A stretch of 41,758 bases of DNA. It comes from Halorhabdus amylolytica (GTDB taxonomy: Archaea > Halobacteriota > Halobacteria > Halobacteriales > Haloarculaceae). The stretch covers positions 246,641 to 288,398 of the forward strand of contig NZ_SPQG01000001.1 in NCBI RefSeq assembly GCF_004944975.1. The letters are read 5' to 3'. This document shows, in pieces, positions 10,614-17,334 of this stretch; position 1 is the first letter of the stretch, and each line of letters begins with the position of its first letter. Below the pieces are notes generated by a model. That model saw nothing but the letters and a program-made list of their open reading frames with translations, ran no database searches and was not told where the DNA came from. The translations under genes and the position numbers were made by a program.

Positions 10614-11681
10614 ATGCGCATTGCCGAGCGGGAGGATCTCGACGGCGGTCGCGAGCGTCTGACGCTCGTCCCCGAGAGTCTCGACGACCTCTGGCATCTC
10701 ACTTACGTGATCGAGCCGGGCGACCAGGTCTCGGGTGACACCACCCGCCGCATCCAGCGCAACGACGAGCAGTTACGAGATACGGGTGGTGAACGTGAAC
10801 ACATCTGGGTCGCGCTGGACGTCGAAGATGCGGAGTTCGCCCGCTTCGCCAACCGGTTGCGGGTCAGCGGCGTCATCGCCGACTGTTCCCGCGAGGACCA
10901 ACTCGGACAGCATCACACACTCAACGTCGAGGAACACGACGAGATCGCCGTCGGCAAGTACTGGAAGCCGGATCAACTCGAACGGATCGAGGAGGCCGTC
11001 GAGGCGACCGACGCGCCGGAAGTGGCCGTCGCGACAGTCGAGGAAGGCCAGGCGTACGTCCACACGGTCGCTCAGTACGGTACCGAGGAGCGAGCGAGCG
11101 TTACCGGTCCGACGGGAAAAGGCGACTACGCCCGTCCCCGGGAAGAACTGTTCGCGGAACTCACCGAGGTCCTTTCCCGGATGGACGCCGACGCGATCAT
11201 CCTCGCCGGTCCCGGATTCACCAAACAGGATGCACTCGACTACATCGAGGAGGAGACGACCGACCTCGCGGACTCGATCACGACCGTCGACACGAGTTCG
11301 GTAGGCGATCGCGGCGTTCACGAAGTGCTCAAGCGCGGTGCCGTCGAAGACGTTCAGACCGAAACGCGGATCGCCGAGGAAGCGGCACTGATCGACGAAC
11401 TCATGGAACAGATCGCCGAGGGTGTCGAGGTCGCGTACGGACCGGAAGAGGTGGCCGAAGCGGCCGAATACGGCGCCATCGAGCACTTGCTTGTCCTCGA
11501 CGAACACCTACGAGAGGCGCGTGCGGGCGTGGGGGAATGGGAGATCGACGCCGATACCGTCATCGAACGGACCGAACAGCAGGGCGGCGAGGTGACCGTC
11601 TTCTCCCGAGAGTTCGATCCCGGTCAACAACTCGCGAACCTCGGGGGGATCGCGGCGTTGCTCCGATATCGACTGCAATGA
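10614..11681 (+). CDS. pelA: Pelota (Dom34/aPelota), ribosome rescue factor
   Basis: 355 aa. Pelota enters the A site of stalled ribosomes without a codon and, with ABCE1, splits them for mRNA surveillance. Three domains are visible. An N-terminal Sm-like domain runs to about residue 130 ([22 protein letters not shown]). A central eRF1-like domain covers about 135-250 ([18 protein letters not shown]). A C-terminal L7Ae-like domain follows ([23 protein letters not shown]) and ends [16 protein letters not shown]. It lacks the GGQ motif of release factors, as expected. The ATG at 10614 fits the family start. A T-tract lies 20 nt after the stop. Confidence 0.95.
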
Positions 11682-11749: not shown

Positions 11750-12907
11750 ATGGACTTCGAGGATCGGGGGGATTTCGCGGAACAGGTCGCGGACCTGAAC
11801 CGATACGGCCAGGCCTTGAACAGCTGTGAAACTGCCGACGAGGTAGCCTCGCTCACGCTCGAGGCGATGTCTCTACTGTTCGAGTTCCCCTACGCGACGT
11901 TCGTCGAGGTTCGTGACGGGCAACCGACAGTCAACAGCAGTACGAACCCGGCGCTGAGAGCGGACGGCGACCCATCCGAGCTCGTCCGGGAGGCCATCGA
12001 GACAGGACAGACGGTCACGCGGAACGGTACGGACGCCAGAGTCACCGACGACTCCCCCGTGATGGCCGCCCTGGCTGTCCCGGCGAGCATCGTCGAGGAG
12101 GTGATCGTGGTGCTGGTCCTGCGGGCGACAGAGGCCGACGCGATCGGCGACGAACACGTCGAACCGCTCTCGATCCTGGCTTCCCACGCCGCCACGGCGA
12201 TCAGTAACATTCGCTCGCGGGAGGAACTCGAACGGGCGCGCAACGACCTCGAAACCCGCAAGGAGATGATCGAGATGTACGACAGCCTCCTGCGCCACGA
12301 CCTGGGCAACGACCTGCAGGTCATCACGGGGTTCGCCGACGCGCTACTGGACGAAGTTGACGACCAGGCTGGTGACTACGCCGAACGCATTGACCGGGCC
12401 GCCCGGAGCGCCTCTGATCTGGTCGATCGGGTCGGTAATCTCGTCTCGACGCTCGAGGAAGCCGGCGAACCCGAGCCCAAGTCGCTCCGGCAGGAGCTAG
12501 AGGAAACAGTCCGGGACGTCACCGCCCAGTACGACGACCTGACGGTCGCGTTCGAACCCGCGGACTTCGAGTACCAGGTCTACGGCGGCGACCTGCTGGA
12601 CTCGGTATTCACCAATATCCTCTCGAACGCCGCGATCCACAACGACGGGCCCGTCGCGGTCGACATCTACGCCGAGGAGCCAGGCCCCGAGACGGTAACC
12701 GTCGGGTTCGCCGACGACGGGACCGGCGTCCCCGAGGAGGTCCGGGAGACCATCTTCGAGATGGGACAGAAGGGGCCGGAGAGTACTGGGACCGGACTGG
12801 GACTCGGGTTCGTTCGCGCGCTCACAGAATCCTACGGCGGGACGGTCTCCCTCCAGGAGAGCGCGGATGGCGGTGCCGACTTTCGCGTCACGCTGGACCG
12901 GGTCTGA
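11750..12907 (+). CDS. Soluble GAF-domain sensor histidine kinase
   Basis: 385 aa. A GAF-like sensing domain occupies about residues 20-155. A phospho-acceptor helix follows with His183 in LLRHDLGNDLQVI. The HATPase_c domain has its N box at FTNILSNAAIHN, G1 at FADDGTGVP and G2 at GTGLGLGFVRALTESYGG. No transmembrane segment is present, so the signal is cytoplasmic. This GAF-HisKA-HATPase layout is common in haloarchaea, which often keep kinases as orphans. No response regulator lies nearby. The GAF ligand is unknown. Confidence 0.9.
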   Translation: MDFEDRGDFAEQVADLNRYGQALNSCETADEVASLTLEAMSLLFEFPYATFVEVRDGQPTVNSSTNPALRADGDPSELVREAIETGQTVTRNGTDARVTDDSPVMAALAVPASIVEEVIVVLVLRATEADAIGDEHVEPLSILASHAATAISNIRSREELERARNDLETRKEMIEMYDSLLRHDLGNDLQVITGFADALLDEVDDQAGDYAERIDRAARSASDLVDRVGNLVSTLEEAGEPEPKSLRQELEETVRDVTAQYDDLTVAFEPADFEYQVYGGDLLDSVFTNILSNAAIHNDGPVAVDIYAEEPGPETVTVGFADDGTGVPEEVRETIFEMGQKGPESTGTGLGLGFVRALTESYGGTVSLQESADGGADFRVTLDRV

Positions 12908-14214: not shown

Positions 14215-14613
14215 GCCGGGGGGTCGGACGGACGGGACAAAGCGTTGTCGGCGCCGCCGGACCGTTGGCAAGAGCCTTCTCCGGCACGCCCGTCCACGAC
14301 CACAGCCGGGCGGGCGTTCCGTGTCGCGAGACCGGTACTGGGAGTCCAGTCCTCAGACGGATTATGGTAGATTATTTCCGGATGACGCCGACCCGGGGGT
14401 CGACGGATACCGGTACATCACGACAATAATCCGTATCAGACGTCTTTGAGCTTCAGTGGCCGTTTCGCGTACCTGCTCTCACAGAGGTCGATGTCCTCGG
14501 CGTACGCCGAAGTCATTTCCGTACTTCACCATCTCGTCAGTCAACCAGTCGCTTGAGTGGCGTCCGACCGTACATTTTTGCGTTGGGGCGTGAGAGATAC
14601 CGACATATACCAT
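14215..14613. other. 399-bp intergenic region with inverted repeats and a possible decayed coding fragment
   Basis: No intact gene is seen. It contains a 9-bp inverted repeat (ACGGATTAT 14357-14365, ATAATCCGT 14426-14434). Between the arms is a shorter GACCC/GGGTC pair at 14390-14401. On the minus strand, between about 14570 and 14445, short protein-like stretches ([21 protein letters not shown], then AYAEDIDLCESRYAKRPL) lie in different frames, as expected of a frameshifted remnant. The promoter of the synthetase gene must also lie here; TACATTTTT near 14571 is a weak candidate. Confidence 0.45.
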
Positions 14614-17334
14614 ATGACACGCGACAATCGGTATTCTTCGCAAGTTGTGAGAGAATACTGGCAGTACGAATGGGATAGACAGAACGTCTATACGTGTTCC
14701 GATGACGCCTCGGACCCGACGTACGTCCTCGGGATGTTCCCCTACACCTCCGGGAACCTCCACATGGGCCACGTCCGCAACTACGCAATCACCGACGCCT
14801 ATGCCCGCTATCGGCGTCTCCAGGGCGACGACGTGCTCCAGCCGATGGGTTGGGACGCGTTCGGTCTCCCGGCGGAGAACGCCGCCGAACAACGCTTCAC
14901 TGACCCCCGCTCCTGGACGGAGACGTGCATCGAGAGTATGCGCGAGGAGATGGAGGACCTTGGGCTTGGGTACGACTGGTCGCGGGAGTTCACGACCAGT
15001 GATCCGGCGTATTACCGCTGGAACCAGTGGTTCTTCGAACAGTTCTACGAGGCCGGTCTCGTCGAGTACGACGCCGCCGCCGTCAACTGGTGTCCCGACT
15101 GCGAGACGGTCCTCGCCGACGCACAGGTCGAACATCCAGCAGAGAACGGAACCGATGGGAGGAACGGCGAGTCGGGGCCAGACGCCGGTCCAATCCGGAC
15201 GGAGGGCGTCTGCTGGCGCTGTGAGACGCCGGTCGAGACGCGCGAACTCGACCAGTGGTTTTTCACAATCACCGACTACGCCGAGGAATTGCTCGAGGGG
15301 CTAGAGGACCTCGAGGGCTGGCCCGAGAGCGTCCGGGAGATCCAGCGCAACTGGATCGGTCGCCAGGAAGGGGCCCGTGTCGGATTCGAGGTCCCGGAGT
15401 ACCGGAGCGTCGAAGCGTTCACGAAACGGCTGGACACGATCTTCGGCGCGACGTTCCTGGCGATCTCGCCAGGTCACGACCTCGCGACGGAATTCGCCGA
15501 CGAGGAAGACGCGGTCGCCGACTATCTCTCGGGAACCCGCGGGCGCGACGAGGGTGAGCGGGCAGCCACGGCCCACGGGGTCTTCACGGGACACCACGCG
15601 ATCCACCCGCTTTCAGGCGAGAAAATCCCGATCTACGTCGCCGAGTACGTCCTGGACGACGTGGGGACCGGCGCTGTCATGGGCGTGCCAGCCCACAATG
15701 AACGCGATCACGCCTTCGCGAAGGCCCAGAATCTACCGATCGAACCCGTGATCGACCCAGACGACGGAGAACGTCCCCGAAACGATGACGGCACCGTCGT
15801 CGGGGGCCTGCCCTACACCGGCGCGGGGACCCTCGTCGAAAGCGGCGAGTACGACGGGCTGGACAGCGAGCGCGCCCGCGAGCGGTTCCTCGAACTTGAC
15901 TGTGCCGAGTCAGCCGTCACCTACCGCCTCCGGGACTGGCTGATCTCCCGGCAGCGTTACTGGGGGACGCCGATCCCGATCGTCCACTGTGAGGAGTGCG
16001 GTCCCGTGCTGGTGCCAGAGGACGACCTGCCGGTCGAACTCCCCGAATACCAGCCTGCGACCGGCAATCCCCTCGAAGCGAACGAGGACTTCGTCGAGAC
16101 GACCTGTCCGGAGTGTGGTGACCCCGCCCGGCGGGAGACCGACACGATGGACACGTTCGTCGACTCCTCGTGGTACTTCCTGCGGTTTCTCTCGCCCGGC
16201 TTCGGGGACGCGCCGTTCGACGCCGACCGCGCGGCGGAGTGGTTACCCGTAGACGTCTACGTCGGCGGCGAGGAACACGCCGTCCTGCACCTGCTGTACA
16301 TCCGTTTTTTCGCACGAGCCCTTTCCGATCTCGGCATCCTCGACAGACGGGAACCGGTCGAACGACTCGTCAACCAGGGGACGGTGCTACACGGCGGCCG
16401 GAAGATGTCGACGACGACAGGGAACGTCATCACCCCACACGAGTACGGTCCGGAGACGACACGTCTGTTCGTCCTTAGCGCGGCCCATCCGCGCCAGGAC
16501 TTCGAGTGGACGGCCAAGGACGTCAGTTCGGCCTATGACTTCCAGCAACAGCTCTACGGCATGGTCGATACGTTCGTCGACCGGGAGTCCGGGCGGACCG
16601 ATCGACGGCCGAGAGACGAGTACCTCGATCGGGCCATCGACCGATCGATTGCCGCCGTCACCGGGGAATTCGACGCCTTCCGGTTCCACCGGGCGATCGG
16701 GGAGATACGGTCGCTTGCCGGCCTGCTCTCGCAGTACCGCGACACAGGCGAGCCCCACGAGGAGGTCTACCACCGCGGGCTCGAGACGTTGGCCGTTTTG
16801 ATCGAGCCGATCACGCCGTACCTCGCCGAGGAACTGTGGAACATGTTGCGACGTGACGGTCTCGCCGTCGAAGCCGACTGGCCCGAACCGACTGGCGACA
16901 CTGGGAACTATCGCATCGAGCGGGCGTTGATCGACCGGACGCGAGAGGACGTCCGGGACATCTGTGAAGTGGCCGGGATCGACGACCCCGAACGGATCAC
17001 ATTCGTCGTCGCCCCGAAGTGGAAGTTCCGCGCCCACGAGTCGGTCCGACAGACCGACCCCGACGGGGCAGTCGTCAGTCGGGCGCTGGAAGACGACCTC
17101 GTCGCCGACCACCGCGAGGAGGCTGGACCCTATCTCGCGGACCTAGAGGAACGGCGTCGCTCGCTGGAACCGGTCCTCGATCCGGCGCGCGAACGCACGC
17201 TACTCGAGCGAGCAGGCTGGCTGTTCCGCGAGGAGTTCGACGCCCCAATCGTCGTGGAGTCGGCGTCCTCGATCGATGACAAGGCGCTGGCGGGGCGTGC
17301 CGAACCTGGCAAACCCGCGATCCACATCGACTAG
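14614..17334 (+). CDS. leuS: Leucyl-tRNA synthetase with altered KMSKS and editing motifs, probable paralogue
   Basis: 906 aa from the ATG at 14614; a GTG at 14557 would add 19 unsupported residues. It charges tRNA-Leu with leucine. The core is of the bacterial type, as in other haloarchaea: [11 protein letters not shown] (HIGH, 50-53), [14 protein letters not shown] and [14 protein letters not shown]. Zinc Cys pairs occur in [12 protein letters not shown] and [10 protein letters not shown]. The KMSKS loop reads Lys597-Met-Ser-Thr-Thr (KMSTTTGNV), so the second Lys is lost. In the CP1 editing domain the usual TTRPDT reads Thr270-Lys-Arg-Leu-Asp-Thr275, and HDxRD reads His361-Asn-Glu-Arg-Asp365. 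The C-terminal part looks archaeal ([23 protein letters not shown]). The frame is fully open. I think this is a second LeuRS with changed chemistry, not the housekeeping copy. Confidence 0.88.

Follow-up and report, generated by a model that had tools for sequence, protein, structure and literature searches.

The window, a stretch of 41,758 nucleotides from Halorhabdus amylolytica, carries on its plus strand a gene for a leucyl-tRNA synthetase, LeuRS2 (positions 14614 to 17334). The frame is open from either of two starts to the stop at 17334, giving 906 aa from the ATG at 14614 or 925 aa from the upstream GTG at 14557; residues of LeuRS2 are counted here from the ATG, all other positions follow the E. 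coli enzyme. In a profile search, LeuRS2 matched TIGR00396 (leuS_bact) with 791 bits against a cut-off of 548, and it matched the Thermus-type LeuRS 1h3n with E = 6.5e-186. Family membership is certain, and the fold is clear from the sequence. The C-terminal part found its top matches in the archaeal LeuRS 1wz2 (residues 542-905) and in TIGR00395 (residues 543-905), and the archaeal-type C-terminal domain (positions 16984-17331) lies within this part. By these matches LeuRS2 is a bacterial-type core joined to an archaeal-type C terminus, as the original prediction had suggested. The HIGH motif reads HMGH (residues 50-53; 14761-14772). Four zinc-type cysteine pairs are present, CPDC (160-163; 15091-15102), CWRC (200-203; 15211-15222), CEEC (459-462; 15988-15999) and CPEC (498-501; 16105-16116). 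R202 within CWRC corresponds to R178, which contacts the gamma-phosphate of ATP and is invariant. The KMSKS loop reads KMSTT (597-601; 16402-16416) and continues to KMSTTTGN, so that the third lysine (KGN) is lost as well (T602). The motif positions, the 906-codon frame, the HIGH motif and the cysteine pairs had all been described correctly to the residue.

LeuRS2 stands alone between an upstream MBL-fold gene and a downstream gene for a TetR-type regulator, both on the other strand. This arrangement is largely common within Halorhabdus and differs in other genera, in agreement with Andam et al. LeuRS2 has no linked tRNA gene, and a tRNA-Leu gene was found near only one of 40 loci (L072); beyond the genus, neither a linked tRNA nor a conserved operon was found. 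The neighbors (MBL-fold, TetR regulator, histidine kinase, eRF1-like) include no locus for biosynthesis of, or resistance to, an inhibitor. The eRF1-like protein (355 aa; 10614-11681, plus strand) has strong matches to eRF1 domains 1 and 3 and a weak one to domain 2, and is possibly a release-factor or Pelota-like paralog. It is followed by a GAF/histidine kinase gene (11750-12907), and both genes also lie beside LeuRS2 in Halorhabdus salina (L037).

The genome that contains the window (3.46 Mb, 26 contigs, 99.4% complete) encodes another LeuRS (G000:C23:67554-70208) that is 54% identical to LeuRS2 and has the motifs KMSKS, TTRLDT and HDDRD, while a whole-genome search found no archaeal-type LeuRS. 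The earlier guess of a second copy was therefore right, and LeuRS2 is not the only LeuRS of its genome. The Halorhabdus genomes with KMSTT or KMSTA that were searched as whole genomes carry a canonical copy too. The closest named relative found was Halorhabdus salina (75% identity). The alignment combined E. coli LeuRS with sequences from 57 genomes within the family, from 80 loci in named genomes and from 40 further LeuRS genes, and a FastTree phylogeny of 165 sequences was rooted with the E. coli enzyme. LeuRS2 falls into a clade of 95 distinct sequences (support 0.947); the housekeeping copy of the same genome belongs to a separate clade of 69 sequences (support 0.728). The two groups correspond to those that Andam et al. 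(2012; PMC3436685) named LeuRS-B'' and LeuRS-B'. LeuRS2 is hence a further member of a paralog family known since 2012, and ordinary in kind; two haloarchaeal LeuRS forms have been known for more than 10 years, the second without an assigned role.

The same clade contains NmLeuRS2 of Natrialba magadii (Fang et al., 2014), which also exists beside a B' enzyme (LeuRS1) and shares with LeuRS2 the bacterial core, the archaeal C terminus and an HN[ED]RD editing motif. The Natrialba members have likewise lost the second lysine of KMSKS (KMSSS or KMSTS), whereas the Halorhabdus form is KMSTT or KMSTA and the window sequence alone adds T248K and loss of the third lysine. LeuRS1 of the same genome resembles LeuRS2 in lacking the leucine-specific domain and in its zinc-type cysteine pairs and catalytic residues, but differs in having E169, D342, M536, M568, an intact KMSKS and four extra residues behind the KMSKS loop. 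Another duplicated archaeal enzyme with impaired function and an altered editing domain is LeuRS-I of Sulfolobaceae (Weitzel et al., 2020). By its description in the review PMC9437257, LeuRS-I differs in that its editing domain is disrupted, its C-terminal domain is divergent and acidic, and it does not aminoacylate.

Selection on LeuRS2 is purifying; that the gene is under selection had been proposed from the open frame and the intact motifs. Among Halorhabdus, dN/dS (NG86) ranged from 0.13 to 0.20 in B'' and from 0.11 to 0.18 in B', and the frame is open at full length in all close relatives. The B'' protein evolves faster, with 74-77% identity to the window genome copy within the genus compared to 85-89% for B'. 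Gaps aside, HMGH, M40, Y43, D80, R178, W223, Y527, E532, H533, H537 and Y540 are invariant in B'', and the four cysteine pairs are present in 95/95 sequences. Positions invariant in B' are kept in B'' at a mean of 94% and 90% in the two catalytic parts and 85% in the editing domain. For the helical bundle and the C-terminal domain, each with few such positions, the means are 91.5% and 78%. The dN/dS values and the invariant residues rule out a pseudogene and favor retained catalysis over a mere tRNA-binding relic.

The original prediction saw the missing second lysine of the KMSKS loop (K622) as the diagnostic defect, a view which the comparison does not bear out. All five Halorhabdus relatives examined have KMSTT or KMSTA, so the loss is no chance or sequencing feature. 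Within B'' the lysine is kept in 43/95 sequences and replaced in 52, mostly by Ser (29), Thr (13), Ala (6) or Glu (3). This requires at least six changes on the tree, or seven losses if only loss is allowed, and the groups concerned include Halorhabdus, Halosimplex, a group with Halapricum, and Natrialbales-type groups. Conservation of the catalytic positions is equal in B'' enzymes with and without this lysine (0.918 and 0.916). In B' it was lost twice on the tree, in 9/69 sequences, which read AMSSS. In six sampled species of one genus (g24, family f3), the AMSSS enzyme is the only LeuRS (G058, G075, G088, G095, G102 and G119; loci L170, L161, L169, L182, L173 and L174). These genomes are 95-99% complete, one of them being a single contig, and searches of all six found neither a second bacterial-type nor an archaeal-type LeuRS. 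Both KMSKS lysines can thus apparently be absent from a haloarchaeal LeuRS that carries translation, although the AMSSS enzymes keep the third lysine that LeuRS2 has lost. Loss of the second lysine alone is consequently no mark of a dead or failing enzyme. In the window genome, IleRS (GMSKS) and ValRS (AMSKS) keep it. In a near-complete genome without archaeal LeuRS (G002; L144 and L021), B' reads AMSSS and B'' KMSKT, so that neither loop is fully canonical.

Haloarchaea accumulate molar concentrations of potassium in the cell. In human TyrRS potassium replaces the second lysine, according to the citation of Austin and First (2002) in PMC7927068. By analogy, potassium may take the place of the missing KMSKS lysine in haloarchaeal LeuRS. 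The existence of a sole LeuRS without the KMSKS lysines bears on the extent to which a lost KMSKS signals lost function in high-potassium cells.

We compared all alignment columns of B' and B'' for positions fixed differently, of which there are few. Four substitutions stand out in B'', E169A (94/95), D342N (93/95), M536L (95/95) and M568T (93/95); further fixed differences are L/V at 335, D640E, A/T at 642 and M647L, with one each in the helical bundle and the C terminus. In addition, the stretch behind the KMSKS loop comprises 12 residues in B'' and 16 in B', and this four-residue deletion, located in LeuRS2 between residues 609 and 610 (16438-16443), is found in 95/95 B'' sequences. E169 and D342 are both present in 69/69 B' sequences, where LeuRS2 has A170 (15121-15123) and N362. 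In the priming loop (GIEHA), residue 531 is Ile in 65/69 B' sequences, whereas 89/95 B'' sequences have an acidic residue there; LeuRS2 reads GEEHA with E553, and the segment extends to L558 (residues 552-558; 16267-16287). Judged from the alignment, it is above all the clade-wide pair E169A and D342N that defines B''; of the two, the original prediction had missed E169A. Only one of the 95 B'' sequences, from Halobacteriales archaeon QS_1_68_17 (L109), has Glu169, and the group that it forms with L012 has KMSKS.

In the LeuRS of Neisseria, E169 lies on the CP1 hairpin, where it is in contact with Y554 and W223 and clashes with L550; closure of the hairpin on ATP and leucine depends on it (PMC9424281). 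In the E169G mutant the hairpin stays open and leucine activation is 24-fold less efficient (PMC9424281). Neisseria L550 corresponds to E. coli M536 and to L558 of LeuRS2, as placed by the GIEHAxLH motif, and both members of the E169/L550 switch pair therefore differ between B' and B''. Haloarchaeal LeuRS2 is described in a review as drastically reduced in aminoacylation with its affinity for tRNA-Leu kept (PMC9437257, citing Fang et al., 2014). E169A, rather than the lysine, may be the best single explanation of this reduction, with the effect of E169 borrowed from a bacterial enzyme, from a change to Gly instead of Ala and from another background. Compensation for E169A could come from the acidic residue 553 or from L558. 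The fixed signature of B'' (E169A, D342N, M536L, M568T and the deletion behind KMSKS) points to the activation step, and it makes the reported low activity of LeuRS2 testable by exchange of single residues between the paralogs.

Two changes in the editing site had also been pointed out. The reading of TTRPDT as TKRLDT (residues 270-275; 15421-15438) as two changes was rejected, since Leu in RLDT is the normal state of haloarchaeal bacterial-type LeuRS, including the housekeeping copy of the same genome with TTRLDT. The Thr to Lys change at T248 (K271) is real and unusual, TKR occurring in the window sequence only among the 95 B'' members. HNERD (residues 361-365; 15694-15708) is indeed present instead of HDxRD, but it is not peculiar to this gene, as Asn at position 342 is found in 93/95 B'' sequences. 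That the position stays Asn across B'' speaks for a replacement and not for drift. T252 and R249 are invariant in B'', and 93/95 sequences retain D345. LeuRS of Candida and yeast cannot do without a conserved Asp in the editing site (PMC3834818). From the sequence, editing by LeuRS2 is predicted to be weak. A strongly changed B'' enzyme, L196 (G006:C1:1757201-1759837), combines a KMAET loop with an editing site that reads TRRLDT and HDSQA.

We surveyed 243 genomes of the order that are at least 95% complete. A LeuRS was found in all 243, of bacterial type in 188, of archaeal type in 90 and of both types in 35. With B'' called at an identity of at least 58% among the matches listed, a threshold that may miss divergent members, 81 near-complete genomes have B'', and in 0/81 is it the sole LeuRS. 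Its partner in these listed genomes is a second bacterial-type match, taken as listed, in 61, LeuRS-A in 19 and B' in one (G039). The only genome seen with B'' alone is 60% complete (G010); its B'' (L012) has an intact KMSKS, and E169 is present in the near relative L109. Genomes with a single match of about 55% identity were considered as further B''-only cases and rejected, the single-copy sequences that were fetched all lying outside B'' and grouping with B'.

Our preferred reading, which we consider probable, is that LeuRS2 is an ancient auxiliary enzyme beside the housekeeping LeuRS, with slow charging, altered editing and a non-housekeeping role. It would still bind leucine, ATP and tRNA-Leu and would most likely make Leu-AMP and Leu-tRNA, slowly. 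E169A would remove the glutamate that holds the active site closed while leucine is activated, the priming loop has become acidic, and behind its motif the KMSKS loop is shorter, with two lysines lost in the window sequence. Slow activation is suggested by the Neisseria E169G mutant together with the published data on haloarchaeal LeuRS2. Editing would be altered by the clade-wide D342N and the private T248K, and the enzyme may act conditionally or in the handling of tRNA-Leu. A possible though rather unlikely variant holds that B'' was rewired and not weakened: its ancestor would have lost the E169 clamp and reset the site by M536L, the acidic residue 531 and D342N, and slow or potassium-dependent activation would have been selected for a role of its own, for example conditional charging or a readout of leucine or tRNA-Leu. 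We consider it unlikely that LeuRS2 is a fully competent LeuRS used under another salt, pH or leucine level, with potassium in place of the lost lysine. Such an enzyme would agree with AMSSS B' as only LeuRS in six genomes, with the repeated loss of the second lysine untied to other catalytic loss, with the potassium effect in human TyrRS and with a LeuRS urzyme that loses little rate when its lysines are removed (PMC9026127); the clade-wide E169A is, however, predicted to slow activation, in the 81 near-complete genomes B'' always has another LeuRS beside it among the matches listed, and the review cited above describes reduced aminoacylation for haloarchaeal LeuRS2.

That LeuRS2 has given up charging tRNA for translation and uses its old pocket as a regulator that binds tRNA-Leu or leucine is doubtful. 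E169A, the altered KMSKS loop, the altered editing site and the combination of low aminoacylation with kept tRNA-Leu affinity in that review would suit a sensor, but residues of both half-reactions (D80, R178, E532 and HMGH) are invariant and would be needless in a pure binder, and conservation is higher in the catalytic core than in the tRNA-binding C terminus. We give little credence to a reserve enzyme insensitive to an inhibitor, comparable to AgnB2 against agrocin 84 (TM84) or IleRS2 against mupirocin. AgnB2, likewise a second LeuRS beside a housekeeping one, has an altered KMSKS loop and lacks the leucine-specific domain, and K622 touches the phosphate of the adenylate mimic TM84 (PMC5059758); B'' alters K622 or its surroundings as well as the editing site, and the gene is retained though insufficient alone. 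B' also lacks the leucine-specific domain, however, and while AgnB2 has a Met to Gln change in KMSKS and is plasmid-borne with antibiotic genes, LeuRS2 has no antibiotic or resistance neighborhood, its surroundings are not conserved between genera, and the gene is vertically old, widespread and not mobile-looking within the genus. Decay of a redundant duplicate heading for loss is very improbable: the faster protein evolution and extreme forms such as L196 would be expected from it, but the dN/dS values, the full-length frames in all close relatives and the fixation of the changed residues themselves (N342 and A169) argue against drift.

Archaeal-type and bacterial-type LeuRS genes were also seen adjoining each other, mostly in divergent orientation (G176:C22, G117:C1, G206:C16, G217:C4 and G024:C1). 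In G061, LeuRS-A and B'' lie about 3 kb apart.
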